In this document: positions 172-10,647 of the stretch, in pieces
How the letters are laid out: every line of letters begins with the position of its first letter
Numbering within the stretch: position 1 is the stretch's first letter
DNA from: Thermostichus lividus PCC 6715
GTDB lineage: Bacteria; Cyanobacteriota; Cyanobacteriia; Thermosynechococcales; Thermosynechococcaceae
Assembly (NCBI RefSeq): GCF_002754935.1
Contig: NZ_CP018092.1
Location: 1,674,001 to 1,738,000 of the forward strand
Length of the DNA: 64,000 nt
Direction of reading: 5' to 3'
Position numbers and translations under genes: made by a program
The notes under the pieces: model-generated
What the model saw: the letters and a program-made list of their open reading frames with translations, nothing else
The model's database searches: none
Told to the model about the DNA's origin: nothing

Positions 172-1196
172 CTAATAATGAATGCGCGGATCTACCCACG
201 CATTGATCATATCAATCACAATACTGGCAACAACAACAATCACCGCAAAGAAAACAATAATTCCCTGTACAGTTGGGTAGTCCCGTAGGGCAATGGCTTC
301 GTAGAGGCGATTCCCCAGTCCCGGCCAAGAAAAGGTGACTTCGGTGAGCACTGCCCCCCCAACAGGCTGGCTAGGGTCAACCCCAGAACGGTGATGACGG
401 GAATTAGGGCATTTTTTAGGGCATGGTGAACCAGAATTCGGGATTCGGGGATGCCGCGGGCGCGAGCTGCTTCAACGTAGTCAGCAAGCAGGGTTTCTTT
501 GAGGTTGACGCGGACAATGCGCTCAAAAATACCACTGAGGACAATCCCCAAGGTTAATGCCGGCAGTGTGAGGTAGTAGAGGGCAACGCCAAATTGAGGC
601 AGGTTAAGGCTGAGCAGGGCATCGAGGGTGTAGAGTCCGGTGGGGCCATTGGGGGGGGAGAGGGTAATGGGGTAGCGCGTGCCTAGGGGTAACCAGCCTA
701 GTTCTACCGCAAATAGCAGTTGCAACAGCATCCCCAGCCAAAATAGGGGTAAGGCGTAGGTAATAATGCCAAACAAACGCCCGCCTATATCCCACGCGGA
801 TCCCGCTCTAACGGCTGCGACGCTACCGATGATGACCCCCAACCCGAAGGCGATCGCCAAACTAAAGAGCGCCAGTTCTGCGGTTGCTGGAAAGTGCTTG
901 GCAATAATTGTCGTCACTGCCTCCCCTTGGCTAGTGAGGGAGGTGCCCAAATCGAAGTGGAGCAATTGGCCAAGGTAGGTCAAATACTGTTGCCACAGGG
1001 GCTGAGCTAAGCCTAACTGTTGCCGCAGCGCCTCCTTGACCGCAGCCGGTGCCCGCGGCCCCAACACCGCATCGACGGGATCCCCCGGCGTGGCTCGCAG
1101 CAATAGAAATACGATGGTCACAATCGTCCAGAGCATGAGGGGTGCAAGCAGCAGCCGCACCAGCAGGTAGCCTTGAAGAGCGCGGAGTCGAGACAT
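172..1196 (-). CDS. Dipeptide/oligopeptide ABC transporter permease (DppB/OppB family), frameshifted near the C-terminus
   Basis: Inner-membrane permease of the DppB/OppB type, which pairs with a DppC-like permease and ATPases to import peptides, nickel or glutathione. The N-terminal helix, the RATPGDPVDAVLG stretch and the EAA-loop-like VEAARARGIPESRIL are all present. The annotated frame goes out of register after ASLLGG, at a run of seven Cs (354-360, plus strand). Adding one base restores the canonical tail AVLTEVTFSWPGLGNRLYEA and so on to WVDPRIHY, with a stop at 172-174, giving about 341 aa, the normal family length. As read, the protein ends at 240 with 318 aa and a nonsense tail. Either a sequencing undercall or a recent one-base deletion explains this. 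No ABC partner genes are adjacent. Confidence 0.85.
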
Positions 1197-2691: not shown

Positions 2692-4521
2692 TTAGGGTGC
2701 AAAGGCCAACTGAGGTATGCTAGGGCGCGCGTGTTGGGTCGTGGGTAACGAGGGGGCTGGCCTAGAGGGCAATAATTCAGTGCGGAACTGGGGAGCGTCG
2801 CCATGGAGAAATTCTGCCATAAAGGCAGTGACATTATTGGTGACTACGTTGACCACAGGATGCAGCCCCAAAAACATACCGCCAAAGGTGACAGCGAGGT
2901 TAGGCAAGGTAATTAAGGCAACATTTTGGTAGGTACGCTCTAGGGCATCCCGGGCTAGGGCAATGCCACGACTAAGCGCCGCCCACTCCGGATCGAGCAA
3001 GACGACAACTTTGGCATTGGGGGTAAAGGTGGAAGGCGCCCAGCGAATTGGCAGCCACTGATCTAGGGGACAACTACAGGCTTCCCCAAAGCTGAGCCAG
3101 CCCACACGGTACTGTTTGCCCTGCAGATAGCACTGTAAATCGCTAAGGCGATCTGAGGTGAGGTCTGTGGCTCCCTCCATGGGGACGGTATGCGCCTCTG
3201 GATGCACCACGTAGGTGGCTATGCCGATACGTCGTAGGGTTTGAATCAGGCGTTGACACCCTAAGAGGTCGGGAATGCCTGAGCGACCATCGATAATTAA
3301 ACAATTCAGTTGGGCAAGATATTCGAGGGTGCCAGCGGTTGGCAGGTAAACCCCTTGCTGCACGGCAAATACTTGGGCAGACAGGAGGACGGTACGCAGT
3401 GAGAGTTGGACGCCACTGCCAAAGTCAAATTGCAGGGGGGCGATCGCCGGCCCGTAGGCTCCTGTGGAGAACCACAATGCGGCACTTAGTGCCAAGGTGG
3501 GCAAAACAGCATGACGGGCAAATTCTCCTTGCTGGTGCGCTAAGGCACTATCATAGACAGGCTCTGTGTGCAGCAAGTCAGTGATCAAGCCAAGGCGAGT
3601 TTGCCAACCCGTGCGGGTGGCTTGCACCTGTAGTTGCCCGGTAATCACTTGGCTACCGGCGTTGAGGGAGTCTCCTGGGCGGACAACCATCACTTGGCGC
3701 GAGAGGGCAAAGTGAGCAGGCTCAATTTCGGCGATGCCAACCAAAACCTTACCATCGGCAGGCACTAACTCTCCGGGTTGTAGCCAGAAAATATCCCCAG
3801 CTTGGAGTTGTTGGCTTTCAATCGTTAGGGGAACCTGCCCTCGCTCAACCGTAAGGTGCTGATAGTGCTCCATTAAGACACTGGGATAGGCGTGTAATTG
3901 CTGTCGTCGGTGGCGATCGCGCACATCTGCCCTCACCCCAACCATCGCAGTTTTTAAGGCGGGTGCTAAAAACTGACCGTTGGCAGTGTGCAGCCCAATC
4001 CACAGGCTATCGAGTAAATCGACATTGGGAGGATGCCCTTGGCTGACCTGATGCCCCACGCGCTGAAACCATGGCCATGCACTGGCAAGCACCGCTGCCC
4101 CCACGACGACAAAGGGAAGCTCGAACGGCACACTCAACAGTGATACGCCCAAGGCAACAAGGGGTAACCCTAAGCGCTCCCAATCGGTTTCAAGGCGGGC
4201 ATCGGCCTCCACTTGCGCCTCGTAATCTTCGAGGGCGATCGCATCCGCAGGTGCCGCCGTGGGCGGACATGGCTGGGGAGTGGCAACCGTTGCTTGGCTA
4301 AAGCAGCGACTAAGGGCATCGTGGATGGTGTTGGCAGCGAGTAAATGGGGCTGATACTCAACAACCACTGTGGCGGCTTGGCGGTTTAAGCGCACCCGCT
4401 CCACAATGGCCAAGGACTCTAGCAACTGCACCACTAGCTCAGCATAGTTGGCATCCCAGCGTAGTCGCGGCACTCGAAACCGTACCCGTCCTACGGTTGC
4501 ATGGACAATCTGCTGCTCCAT
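2692..4521 (-). CDS. P-type ATPase-like (P1B) membrane protein lacking catalytic motifs
   Basis: About 609 residues from the ATG at 4521; an upstream in-frame GTG at 4545 is less likely. The N-terminal ~75 residues resemble a degenerate heavy-metal-associated domain (VGRVRFRVPRLRW, VERVRLNRQAATVVVEY). Next come a pair of membrane segments (FELPFVVVGAAVLAS), an actuator-like beta domain (LQAGDIFWLQPGELVPADGKVL) and further membrane segments, matching P1B metal ATPase order. Key residues are gone: the TGE position reads FALSRQ, no CPC/CPx is visible in the membrane helix, the DKTGT phosphorylation loop reads IIDGRSG, and GDGxND is absent. It should not couple ATP hydrolysis to transport; a binding or scaffolding role is inference. 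No P1B partner is adjacent. Confidence 0.7.
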   Translation of the reverse strand: MEQQIVHATVGRVRFRVPRLRWDANYAELVVQLLESLAIVERVRLNRQAATVVVEYQPHLLAANTIHDALSRCFSQATVATPQPCPPTAAPADAIALEDYEAQVEADARLETDWERLGLPLVALGVSLLSVPFELPFVVVGAAVLASAWPWFQRVGHQVSQGHPPNVDLLDSLWIGLHTANGQFLAPALKTAMVGVRADVRDRHRRQQLHAYPSVLMEHYQHLTVERGQVPLTIESQQLQAGDIFWLQPGELVPADGKVLVGIAEIEPAHFALSRQVMVVRPGDSLNAGSQVITGQLQVQATRTGWQTRLGLITDLLHTEPVYDSALAHQQGEFARHAVLPTLALSAALWFSTGAYGPAIAPLQFDFGSGVQLSLRTVLLSAQVFAVQQGVYLPTAGTLEYLAQLNCLIIDGRSGIPDLLGCQRLIQTLRRIGIATYVVHPEAHTVPMEGATDLTSDRLSDLQCYLQGKQYRVGWLSFGEACSCPLDQWLPIRWAPSTFTPNAKVVVLLDPEWAALSRGIALARDALERTYQNVALITLPNLAVTFGGMFLGLHPVVNVVTNNVTAFMAEFLHGDAPQFRTELLPSRPAPSLPTTQHARPSIPQLAFAP

Positions 4522-4647
4522 TGCACACTGCCTTATACTGGCCACTTCTTCTCAGCTTATAACGTTTGTTTTGGGATCAAAATACAAGCCCTGTTTTACC
4601 GCCATCTGAGCGCAAGCTACAGGGTTGCATGTCTGCCTGCAACGTAC

Positions 4648-5765: not shown

Positions 5766-6539
5766 TTACTGACTAACAATTCCTGACCACTGCACCTGTT
5801 TGAGGCGTTCTCGGCGGTAGGAGAAAAAGTAGGTCGCATCTTCGTAGGTACAGTAGGGACACAGCGCTATCTGATCCTCCTGTAGCCCTAATTGCAACAG
5901 TTGCAACCGATTGACCCGCGCCACATCAATCCGCAGCCGTTGCGGGTCTGCATCCGTAAACACTACTGCCGGATCCAACCTTGCTAAGGATTGGTAAAGG
6001 TCTGTAGAGACCATCGCAGCATCGACCTGATCGGTTACGTCTGTCACGGTTGCCGCCAAAGCATAGGCCACCGGCAAACCCACTTGATATCGCTTACCCT
6101 GAATGGCAGGCCCTAGTACCACCCGTAAACTAGCCAACTCGCTACCCAACGCCTGCATTTGGGCAATTGTTTTCTTGGTGATTTCAGCAGCCGTCCCCCG
6201 CCAGCCCGCATGAATTGCCGCAACCCGTCCCGTCGTTTGATCAGCAATCAGCAGTGGCACACAATCAGCACTGCACACCCACAGAGCTTGATCCGCCGCC
6301 GTGGTAACTAGGGCATCGGCCTCTAAACGGGTTTGCGTGGCCAACACTTCTGCGGCCAAGACAACACGATTGCCATGCACCTGTTGAGTGCGCAGCGAAG
6401 GTGCAGTTGACCCCAGTGCCGCCGTGAGACATTCGAGGGGCTGACCCTGCCAAGTGCGACTAAAGAACCCATGGCGAAAGTCTGATAGCAGGTCACAGGT
6501 TAAAAATACCCCCAGTTCAGTGGTTTGCCAGTGCCACAT
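5766..6539 (-). CDS. pgeF: Peptidoglycan editing factor / YfiH-LACC1 multicopper-like family
   Basis: About 257 residues from the ATG at 6539. The YfiH/PgeF family is known both for removing misincorporated residues during cell-wall synthesis and for purine nucleoside phosphorylase/adenosine deaminase activity in homologues. The metal-site signatures are present: TQQVHGNRV (His), CSADCVPLLI (Cys) and AAIHAGWRGTA (His). The C-terminus CPYCTYEDATYFFSYRRE is also typical. Its ATG overlaps the stop of the upstream DUF1345 gene (TGATG), which implies translational coupling; in-frame GTGs just upstream are therefore less likely starts. The cobT-like gene follows after 2 nt. Confidence 0.85.
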   Translation of the reverse strand: MWHWQTTELGVFLTCDLLSDFRHGFFSRTWQGQPLECLTAALGSTAPSLRTQQVHGNRVVLAAEVLATQTRLEADALVTTAADQALWVCSADCVPLLIADQTTGRVAAIHAGWRGTAAEITKKTIAQMQALGSELASLRVVLGPAIQGKRYQVGLPVAYALAATVTDVTDQVDAAMVSTDLYQSLARLDPAVVFTDADPQRLRIDVARVNRLQLLQLGLQEDQIALCPYCTYEDATYFFSYRRERLKQVQWSGIVSQ

Positions 6540-7234
6540 CACCACAAGTCCGCAATGACATTGATCACCAACCCGACAATAACACTGTAGAAAAAGAAGG
6601 AGACAATTTGGTGAAACAGCACAAGACGACGAATGCGTTGCCCCTCGATAGAGACATCAGAGGTCTGGGATGTCAGGCTAATCGTAAAGGAGAAATACAT
6701 AAAATCGAGGTAATCGGGTTCGCCGTCTCCCGGAAAATCCAGACCCCCTGCATAACCAAACTCATTAACGGTATGGTAGTTGTCATCGTAGTAGTAGCGG
6801 GCGTACTGCAGTGCAAAGCAGGTGTGAGTTAAAAACCATGCGGCAATGACCGCCCATGTCGCCAAGCTCACCTGCAAGGCCAACAGGGGATTATTAGGAA
6901 TTTTGGTATCTGCTAAGAGTAAACCCGTTGCCACAATACTGGCAATGGCCGTAAACACCACCAGCACAAGGATCATGAGCGTGCTAGGTTCCCCCACCTG
7001 CGATCGCCGCTGGGTTTGTAAGCTATTGACACTGACGATCATCTTCAGGAGCAACAGCAGGTAGGTAGTGATGCCTACATCCCAAGCAAATAGAAGTCGC
7101 TGTCCTAACTCTAGCCAAGTACCCGTAAGGGCAAGGGCAATAACAGCCACCAACAGAGCAAGGATCAGGCGCATTCCCACCTGAAGTTGATCAATCCATC
7201 GGCCAATTCGACTGAAGCTCATACAACTCAGCAT
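6539..7234 (-). CDS. DUF1345 integral membrane protein
   Basis: A 231-residue membrane protein with about five hydrophobic segments (residues ~22-40, 48-66, 85-107, 120-143, 208-231). The signature DYLDFMYFSFTISLTSQTSDV identifies DUF1345, a family of unknown function with a pore-loop-like motif reminiscent of small ion channels; that comparison is inference. Two in-frame ATGs exist (7234 and 7222); neither has a strong ribosome-binding site. It overlaps pgeF by 3 nt and heads a probable three-gene operon (DUF1345-pgeF-cobT-like). Confidence 0.8.
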   Translation of the reverse strand: MLSCMSFSRIGRWIDQLQVGMRLILALLVAVIALALTGTWLELGQRLLFAWDVGITTYLLLLLKMIVSVNSLQTQRRSQVGEPSTLMILVLVVFTAIASIVATGLLLADTKIPNNPLLALQVSLATWAVIAAWFLTHTCFALQYARYYYDDNYHTVNEFGYAGGLDFPGDGEPDYLDFMYFSFTISLTSQTSDVSIEGQRIRRLVLFHQIVSFFFYSVIVGLVINVIADLW

Positions 7235-9249: not shown

Positions 9250-10647
9250 CTAACACAGATGTGTTGACCTAGAAAAATGCGCTGCCCGTTGCAAAAATTT
9301 CATGGCAAATTCTGGGTGGCCTCCCCAGTGCAGATGCAGATAACTGGCATGGACATCATCGCTTCCCCATCCTTCTGGCAAGCTGTTGAGGTGCCACAGG
9401 GGAGAGAGGGGGGATGGTGTCACCCTAGAGTAGTGAAACTCATGCCCCCACACCTGCTGCCCTTGGTCAACACACGGGGTAGCGTGCAGTGCAGTTGCAG
9501 TGCGATAGCCTAGGGTGAGGCGATCGCCCATGTGTGCAACTGTCGGCAGATGCCCCACTAGGGGGTAAACCTGACCCTCTAGGGTGTGAATCCCCTGCGC
9601 TAAGTACATTAACCCCCCACACTCGGCATAGACGGGTAACCCACGCTGGAGGCTGTGGCGCAGAGCACTTAAAAAAGACTCATTGGCGCTTAGCTCGGCA
9701 GCAAACACCTCAGGAAAGCCACCCCCTAGAATCAGGCCGCTCAGATTGGGGGGGAGGCAAGGATCTCGCAGCGGTGATACCGGAATAAGGGTTGCTCCTA
9801 GGGTGCGTAACACATCTAAGGCATCGGTGTAATAGAAGTGAAACGCAGCATCTTGGGCAATACCAATGTTGAGGGGAGAGGGAAGAGGGGGGAGAGAGGA
9901 GAGGGGAGGGGAGAGAGAGGAGAGGGGAGAGGGAAGAGGGGGGAGAGAGGAGAGGGGAGGGGAGAGAGAGGAGAGGGGAGCGCAAAGGGGTTCGAGGTGT
10001 AACCAATCAAAGCAGGTGCAACCAAGAACAGCTAGGCGATCGCCCACGGCTTGAAACGCTGCTGACTCGTGGGGTGGAACTAACCCAAGGTGGCGGCTGG
10101 GTAGGGCAAGCTGCTGATCGCGGTAGAGGACACCAAGGACGGGGATACCAAGGGGCGCAAGGGCATCTTCTAAAATTTGGCGGTGGCGATCGCTGCCGAC
10201 GCGATTGAGAACGACTCCGGCAATTCTCAGGGCTGGATGGTAGTGACAAAAGCCATAAACCAAGGCTGCGACCGATGCTGCCTGTTTTTGCACATCCAAG
10301 ACCAAGAGGATCGGGGCATTCAGCAATTGGGCAATGGCCGCCGTACTGCCTTCACTGGTGCCACTACGGCCATCAAACAGCCCCATCACCCCTTCAATTA
10401 GAACATCATCCGCATCTTGGCTATAGTACTTCGCACAGGTTTGCACATAATCAGCACTGGTGAGGATGGGATCAAGGTTGTAACAGGGACGGCCACTGAT
10501 GGCGCTATGAAACAGCGGATCAATGTAATCAGGGCCAACTTTGAAGGTTTGTACCCGCCGCCCTCGCGCTGTTAGAGCCGCATTGAGGGCAAGAGCCACC
10601 GTGGTTTTGCCCACACCGCTGCGATCGCCGGCAATCACTAAGGCCAT
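9250..10647 (-). CDS. cbiA: Cobyrinate a,c-diamide synthase
   Basis: A 465-residue ATP-dependent amidotransferase that amidates the a and c side chains of cobyrinic acid with glutamine in cobalamin synthesis. The N-terminal P-loop domain begins VIAGDRSGVGKTTVALAL, followed by FKVGPDYIDPLFH and GVMGLFDGRSG. The C-terminal class-I glutaminase-like domain has the nucleophile region YAECGGLMYLA and the late histidine motif GHEFHYSR. Between the domains lies a Ser/Pro/Leu linker (about residues 225-260) encoded by a 51-bp tandem repeat, absent from typical family members. The ATG at 10647 leads directly into the P-loop strand. It is a single gene, divergent from the transketolase-like gene. Confidence 0.92.
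   Translation of the reverse strand: MALVIAGDRSGVGKTTVALALNAALTARGRRVQTFKVGPDYIDPLFHSAISGRPCYNLDPILTSADYVQTCAKYYSQDADDVLIEGVMGLFDGRSGTSEGSTAAIAQLLNAPILLVLDVQKQAASVAALVYGFCHYHPALRIAGVVLNRVGSDRHRQILEDALAPLGIPVLGVLYRDQQLALPSRHLGLVPPHESAAFQAVGDRLAVLGCTCFDWLHLEPLCAPLSSLSPPLSSLPPLPSPLSSLSPPLSSLPPLPSPLNIGIAQDAAFHFYYTDALDVLRTLGATLIPVSPLRDPCLPPNLSGLILGGGFPEVFAAELSANESFLSALRHSLQRGLPVYAECGGLMYLAQGIHTLEGQVYPLVGHLPTVAHMGDRLTLGYRTATALHATPCVDQGQQVWGHEFHYSRVTPSPLSPLWHLNSLPEGWGSDDVHASYLHLHWGGHPEFAMKFLQRAAHFSRSTHLC
9871..9981. repeat. In-frame 51-bp purine-strand tandem repeat inside cbiA
   Basis: Two copies of a 51-bp G/A-only unit (plus strand), with the diagnostic GGAAG at 9881 and again at 9932. The period of 51 nt equals 17 codons, so expansion or contraction keeps the cbiA frame. 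It encodes the 17-residue unit PLSSLSPPLSSLPPLPS twice, joining the two enzyme domains. The strand asymmetry (purines on one strand only) could favour triplex DNA and polymerase slippage. Confidence 0.85.

Follow-up and report, generated by a model that had tools for sequence, protein, structure and literature searches.

The window, by which we mean the whole stretch of 64,000 nucleotides analyzed here, contains a gene for a P1B-type ATPase homologue of the HMA_2 (CoBaHMA-like) branch, which was inactivated in ancient times and has been retained by selection. According to its co-occurrence and gene order in other genomes, the gene would belong to the intracellular CaCO3 gene set marked by calcyanin (ccyA), and this assignment is well supported. 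We consider its product to be, with a probability of about one half, a non-pumping membrane partner in intracellular calcium and carbonate handling.

The open frame runs uninterrupted on the minus strand from a GTG codon at position 4545 to position 2692 (617 aa). Met9 (ATG 4521) is kept in at least 90% of 14 aligned copies and is probably the likelier start, which gives 609 aa and matches the 609-codon gene of the original prediction. The parts of the gene are as follows.

2692..4545, minus strand: catalytically dead HMA_2 (CoBaHMA-like) P1B-type ATPase homologue, 617 aa from the GTG at 4545
4306..4512, minus strand: HMA_2 domain, residues 12-80 (Pfam and alignment)
4036..4188, minus strand: MA-MB, first membrane helix pair, residues 120-170 (AlphaFold2 model and alignments; boundaries inferred)
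3898..4035, minus strand: M1-M2, residues 171-216, holding K198 and R205 (alignment)
3556..3864, minus strand: actuator (A) domain, residues 228-330, fold retained (Pfam E1-E2_ATPase and structural match to 2hc8)
3697..3708, minus strand: TGES site, which reads ALSR (alignment)
3313..3555, minus strand: M3-M4, residues 331-411, strongest constraint (median dN/dS 0.040)
3412..3429, minus strand: M4 motif FDFGSG at the CPx position of other P1B pumps (alignment)
2998..3312, minus strand: shrunken P-domain, residues 412-516, without an N-domain, relaxed (median dN/dS 0.279)
3277..3291, minus strand: DKTGT site, which reads DGRSG (alignment)
3070..3093, minus strand: GDGxND site, which reads SFGEACSC (alignment)
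2800..2997, minus strand: M5-M6, residues 517-582 (alignment and AlphaFold2 model)

The Pfam search places the protein in HMA_2 (PF19991) by a match at residues 12-77 that is only just over the cut-off (30.4 bits vs 30), and E1-E2_ATPase covers residues 230-366. No hydrolase domain was listed in that search, and the NCBIfam P1B models gave at most 66 bits, far under their cut-offs. The HMA_2 domain, which probably corresponds to the CoBaHMA domain, carries three basic residues, R20, R22 and R52, that are invariant in 14/14 aligned copies, and CxxC is absent from it.

The best of five AlphaFold2 models has a pLDDT of 74.6 (the five span 58.8 to 74.6) and consists of an N-terminal alpha-beta domain, paired helices, an A-domain, a shortened Rossmann-like domain and two final helices, with approximately eight membrane helices in the protein. 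Solved P1B ATPases are its best structural matches, over residues 110-594: the Cd2+ pump structure 7qbz (Z 23.9, rmsd 12.1, 432 aligned), CopA 7r0g_B (Z 22.7, rmsd 5.7, 475 aligned) and the ZntA-type 4umv (Z 21.5, rmsd 10.4, 416 aligned). The A-domain matches that of A. fulgidus CopA (2hc8) with Z 13.1 and rmsd 2.1 over 113 aligned residues. The membrane core, A-domain and Rossmann-like P-domain of the P1B fold are therefore all present in the model and its matches, and the heavy-metal P-type ATPase domain order that the original prediction had read from the sequence holds in this comparison with CopA- and ZntA-type pumps. Unlike the pumps of known structure, the window protein lacks the catalytic motifs, CPx and the N-domain, and its N-terminal domain is basic and without CxxC.

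The window's own genome encodes two intact HMA_2 ATPases (L103:6823-9129 and L104:6466-8742; 768 and 758 aa), one of which falls under the HMA_2 cut-off (20.7 bits). These active relatives share with the window protein the domain order to M4, the kind of M4 motif and 31-33% identity over residues 9-432. Both keep TGES, DKTGT, and GDGIND or GEGFND, together with the N-domain, whereas the window protein keeps none of the catalytic motifs whole: in the alignment TGES has become ALSR, DKTGT has become DGRSG, in which the Asp is retained and KTGT is lost, and GDGIND has become SFG-EA. From the DKTGT site to the GDG site, the window protein has 66 residues and its two intact paralogues have 201-202 (61 vs 196-197 for the interval alone), and the approximately 135 missing residues are chiefly those of the N-domain. 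The losses are shared by all 17 aligned copies of the window type, in none of which KTGT is kept; the Asp persists in 11/17, the interval is 45-78 residues vs 196-197 in the intact proteins, and the scraps of motif that survive are TG in four copies, IGET in two and GDG in L088. TGES, DKTGT and GDGxND were found nowhere else along the chain of the window protein, which has none of the features of a catalytic P-type ATPase (DKTGT, TGE in the A-domain, and the GDGxND hinge with the N-domain). Because of the motif losses and the shortened interval, ATP binding and phosphorylation do not appear credible, and the claim that the protein is catalytically dead, and would thus be unable to pump, is confirmed at the level of sequence. 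The original prediction counted four replaced motifs, and it was right for TGE, DKTGT and GDGxND. The fourth, the CPx in M4 of the classical P1B heavy-metal pump, reads FDFGSG here, but the intact HMA_2 ATPases aligned with it also have LDFGTG, LDFATG, LDFSHG and similar motifs at M4; since active relatives do without CPx too, its absence is not part of the decay.

The 17 copies of the window type and L070, a shorter form without the A-domain, form one clade (bootstrap 100, SH-aLRT 100) that is nested within the intact HMA_2 ATPases in a tree of 439 columns from which the P and N domains were excluded. This topology points to one loss of catalysis in the window type. The copies come from records named Thermosynechococcus, Calothrix, Dulcicalothrix, Anabaena, Nostoc, Fischerella, Westiellopsis, Chlorogloeopsis and others; the nearest named relatives are in the Thermosynechococcus records, which suggests that this is the window's genus. 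Two further shapes of dead copy exist. Type B keeps HMA_2 and the membrane segments and lacks the A and N domains (its fold model, at pLDDT 52.7, was too poor for use), and type C has a degenerate N-domain and a length of 696-724 aa. The HMA_2 matches of both are below the Pfam cut-off (20.5 bits for type B L071 and 15.9 for type C L175), and the LDFGSG motif is missing in two of three type B forms and in all five type C rows. When types B and C were added, the dead copies fell on one side of a branch with SH-aLRT 88, where these two types are long branches that meet, and a single origin of all three dead types is therefore possible. Rows were hand-picked in both trees (55 for all dead types and 47 for the window type).

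Several observations were made on related proteins. A contig titled Candidatus Gracilibacteria (L092) carries this cyanobacterial cluster and is probably mis-binned. In L075 (G050, where no ccyA was found), a related ATPase keeps DKTGT yet is split over frames. A segment of approximately 45 residues (LAKRLGV..LT..R.KP.F..W....DP...AW.Y) is shared: it stands at the end of certain ATPases, both dead and intact, and inside HMA_2-glycine-zipper proteins (loci L061:10101-12158, L062:3015-5735, L064:856-2034 and L088:8001-9977).

A protein that had lost its catalytic motifs could simply be a pseudogene in decay. Among ten congeneric genomes one has no such gene and one has a copy in two frames, but the frame is open in the other 8/10 and in several other families, some residues are fixed in dead copies only, and the median dN/dS of the whole gene is 0.124 (pairwise NG86 on nine copies of the window's genus, using the 33/36 pairs whose dS lies between 0.05 and 2). 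A value of 0.12 rules out decay, to which we give next to no credence, and the proposal that the intact frame of approximately 609 codons reflects a maintained protein is borne out by the purifying selection. The ccyA-like genes of the same genus have nearly the same median, 0.123 (28/28 pairs from eight rows; L111, whose frame enters the next gene, and broken copies were omitted). By region (20 to 36 of the 36 pairs, with dS 0.1-2), the median is 0.040 for M3-M4, 0.077 for M5-M6, 0.096 for M1-M2, 0.099 for HMA_2, 0.106 for the linker, 0.112 for MA-MB, 0.137 for the A-domain, 0.279 for the P remnant and 0.347 for the C-terminus. In a rough comparison of two sets that differ in diversity, the 17 window-type copies are more alike mutually than 24 intact ATPases in HMA_2 and the membrane parts, only slightly so in M3-M4, and the reverse holds for the A- and P-domains. 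Residues that the dead copies all share, and that most intact ATPases have replaced by others, include E142, K198, R205, Q339 and Q372; K198 and R205 are each found in 17/17 window-type copies, and the intact proteins have M in 18/24 and Gly in 24/24 at these positions and Ala in 23/24 at that of Q339. Thus, judging from the regional values and the fixed residues, the membrane core and the N-terminal domain are under stronger selection than the catalytic shell.

This pattern of constraint would suit a pump turned channel, in which the membrane core with its DFGSG site passes Ca2+ or another cation down its gradient. M3-M4 is the most constrained part (0.040), the fixed residues named above lie in or near the helices, and D374 to G378 (DFGSG) are invariant in 17/17 window-type copies. 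However, the motif is missing in the type C rows and in two of three type B forms, and conduction through DFGSG would therefore not be a role common to all dead copies; we regard a passive ion path as unlikely on the present evidence.

A new result is the distribution of the dead copies. Among 386 cyanobacterial genomes, 19 have dead copies of the three shapes, with no overlap among the shapes: the window type in six, type B in six (E <= 1.2e-138, the matches of the next genomes starting at 3.3e-46) and type C in seven (E <= 1.7e-90, the next at 1.6e-28). Motif loss was verified in every type B and type C genome, and the motif check covered the copies of G331, G395 and G278, the last of which is split over two contigs; the second copy of G369 was judged dead by score only. 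The ccyA profile A3 matched 16/386 genomes at E <= 1.4e-11, and all 16 carry a dead copy. A ccyA-like gene is therefore present in 16/19 dead-copy genomes vs 0/367 others (Fisher p=1.1e-25, a figure that ignores kinship, which inflates all of these associations). Two of the 16 matches are partial, in G278 at a contig end and in G420, where the match spans 18-150 of 231 in an HMA_2 protein with two repeats. A strict count, which demands a near-complete match of three repeats, gives 14/19 genomes (p=7.9e-22). Nine partial matches to the ccyA profile (E 3.1e-8 to 9.0e-7) were not counted as ccyA, and counting all nine still leaves p=2.2e-19. By genus, scored as positive if any member is positive, ccyA occurs in 8/9 dead-copy genera vs 0/133 others (p=2.7e-12), that is, eight genera have both, one has the dead copy only, none has ccyA only and 133 have neither. 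The three remaining dead-copy genomes all belong to one genus (g85), and no credible ccyA was found in them even at E <= 1. Within g58, four of the seven genomes listed have both genes and three have neither (p=0.029). Per genome, the best candidates scored were at most three for the window type, seven for ccyA, four for type B and two for type C, and dead copies of another shape in ccyA-free genomes were possibly missed in this way; type C came to light in stretches that carry ccyA, and only afterwards was its profile run on all 386 genomes.

The same association is seen at closer and wider range. Among 58 nearer relatives of the window's genome, 16 were found to have a dead copy (type A in 14 and type B in two), and each of these has a glycine-zipper match, which is partial in G016 and broken in G009. 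G009 and G006 both belong to the window's genus. In G009 the dead gene and ccyA are both in pieces, and sequencing error is possible, as coverage is low if this genome is, as it seems, the record of L077. In G006, a draft that is 90% complete, the dead gene is absent, a ccyA remnant of approximately 70 codons is present, and only weak A-domain matches (best E 3.7e-11) occur where congeners have HMA_2 ATPases. The named genomes with a dead copy number 18, from 20 loci of which L081 (the G016 record) and L094 (an intact ATPase) were left out; in 12 of them ccyA is matched at E <= 1e-6, although some of these matches are broken or partial. The other six (three Calothrix-type, one Nostoc, Scytonematopsis and one Synechococcales MAG) gave none at that threshold and short weak matches at a relaxed one.

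The neighbors of the dead copies point in the same direction. In 20 stretches that surround window-type copies of other genera, we found a small DUF5132-like protein in 15 (its DUF5132 match is under the cut-off), a Ca2+/H+ exchanger (CAX) in 13, a ParB-like protein in 12, a Get3/ArsA-type NosAFP in 11, DUF1345 in 10, beta-carbonic anhydrase in seven, an intact HMA_2 ATPase in five, a ccyA-like gene by the glycine-zipper profile in five (L082, L085, L086, L087 and L088) and a P-type Ca2+ ATPase in three (the PMR1 model was best, below its cut-off). These names rest on one or two members per cluster, and the stretches are not independent because related Nostoc-like genomes share much gene order. 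In the family f2, which is remote from the window, a type C dead copy adjoins an intact HMA_2 ATPase and DUF1345 in G369, G410, G416, G363 and G299; four of these five pairs, the exception being G416, have the DUF5132-like protein, and most have weak NosAFP-like matches. The stretches of G369 and G380 also contain carbonic anhydrase and ccyA, and the dead copy of G380 is on a different contig. A second, different dead ATPase (708 aa; L188:1348-3474 and L189:1042-3168) lies a few kb from the dead-intact pair of G410 and G416. In L250 and L251 (G363 and G299), the dead-intact pair is accompanied by the DUF5132-like protein and DUF1345, without a credible ccyA. DUF1345, a family that neighbors dead copies in other genomes, also occurs in the window.

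6539..7234, minus strand: DUF1345 membrane protein, the only match found in the own genome, approximately 2 kb from the dead gene

We rejected this gene as a local link, as the adjacency is absent in 5/5 congeners opened, and its position in the window is possibly a coincidence.

The original prediction had suggested that a dead but intact ATPase has a non-transport role, which stands insofar as such a protein would not be a pump, and had offered metal chaperoning or sensing as examples. The P1B ancestry, the C-S-C or C-T-C at 490-492 in 10/10 rows of the window's genus and the Cys at 81 in 16/17 window-type copies would be compatible with a protein that carries or senses metal. The C-x-C pair is missing, however, in the five window-type rows of other genera in the same alignment, the HMA_2 domain has no CxxC, the annotated genes next to dead copies in other genomes are concerned with Ca2+ and carbonate, and the family tracks calcyanin-like genes; a heavy-metal role of this kind is accordingly quite improbable. 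A heavy-metal operon was also sought and rejected, with no metal regulator or metal chaperone among the 18 neighbors given to Pfam (six around the window gene and 12 around dead copies elsewhere). One window neighbor matches Cu-oxidase_4 (laccase-named), and one neighbor in L073 is a zinc ribbon below the cut-off.

In the own genome, HMA_2 is best matched by L096:1480-2448, a protein of 322 aa in which three glycine-zipper repeats are visible; eight aligned rows share these repeats. Calcyanin, according to the work of Benzerara and colleagues in 2022, reportedly has a C-terminal domain of three glycine-zipper repeats, and by this definition we take the architecture of L096:1480-2448 to be that of calcyanin. 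The calcyanin-like protein and the window protein each have a domain of the HMA_2 family, but the latter differs in lacking glycine-zipper repeats and in its P-type membrane core. In the own genome the window gene is distant from ccyA, from both CAX genes and from both intact ATPases. A shared domain family might indicate a membrane scaffold, in which HMA_2 and the membrane anchor would serve solely to hold calcyanin or the granule machinery in place at a membrane, with no handling of ions. The constraint on HMA_2 (dN/dS 0.099), its retention in type B with the membrane segments and without the A and N domains, and the lipid binding that Gaschignard is said to have described for CoBaHMA domains in 2024 agree with such a scaffold. 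However, the constraint on M3-M4 exceeds that on HMA_2, which a mere anchor does not explain, and the granules have no surrounding lipid bilayer in the portions available of PMC6087745; a pure scaffold thus seems improbable to about the same degree as a passive ion path.

Three papers, in the portions available, link ccyA to calcification inside cyanobacterial cells (PMC11773610, PMC12836880, PMC12746419). The clade of T. elongatus BP-1 forms intracellular CaCO3 granules (PMC6087745, PMC12836880), which the T. elongatus clade nucleates at the septum (PMC6087745), again according to the sections available. Because the granules are without a bilayer, a protein of approximately eight helices would be expected in the cytoplasmic or thylakoid membrane and not on the granule. 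Metal-permease copy numbers show no significant difference between calcifying and other cyanobacteria in the accessible part of PMC12710302.

We favor the non-pumping membrane partner in calcium and carbonate handling. Such a protein would work without ATP, by means of the parts kept by selection. The basic N-terminal domain may dock on anionic lipid or on a partner, and the membrane core of the P-type fold, including the DFGSG site of M4, would act in a cell membrane. There the protein, itself unable to pump, could partner an active HMA_2 ATPase or calcyanin, and the partnership would determine how much Ca2+ or other alkaline-earth ion reaches the granules. A stronger version, which we hold to be doubtful, is that catalysis was lost once early in cyanobacteria and that the clade is now a required non-pumping part of intracellular CaCO3 formation, as an ion conduit or assembly partner, kept with calcyanin and tending to be lost with it.

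The P1B fold, the HMA_2 domain and calcyanin are known. In the literature covered, which does not include the founding calcyanin and CoBaHMA papers, we found no conserved dead P1B clade linked to ccyA, and to that extent such a clade is new; part of the ccyA association may already be in print. Among the titles listed on pseudo or inactive P-type ATPases, HMA_2, calcyanin and ccyA, at most 20 for each, none named the dead family, and a literature search for CoBaHMA returned no paper. The available sections of the P-type ATPase review PMC10654040 do not mention pseudo-ATPases. A possible analogy, as far as the sources excerpted go, is the P4-ATPase-like domain fused to guanylate cyclase in apicomplexans, a P-type membrane unit with another role, but that protein is fused, eukaryotic and of the P4 class. 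Calcyanin is the only marker gene named, in the portions of the literature covered, for the meeting of calcium and carbonate inside cyanobacterial cells. A membrane-embedded second component that tracks calcyanin across families is a concrete gene for deletion, and it would offer a clear example, from bacteria, of a P-type ATPase that has been retained for a purpose other than pumping.

Two other frames of the window deserve mention. The DppB-like ABC permease ORF at 240-1196 (minus strand) has its C-terminus out of frame, with the continuation in another frame, and it is therefore a frameshifted gene or contains a wrong base call. The ORF at 9250-10647 (minus strand), which was taken for a CobB-like enzyme, has a repeated insert of the Leu-Ser-Ser-Leu-Pro-Pro type.
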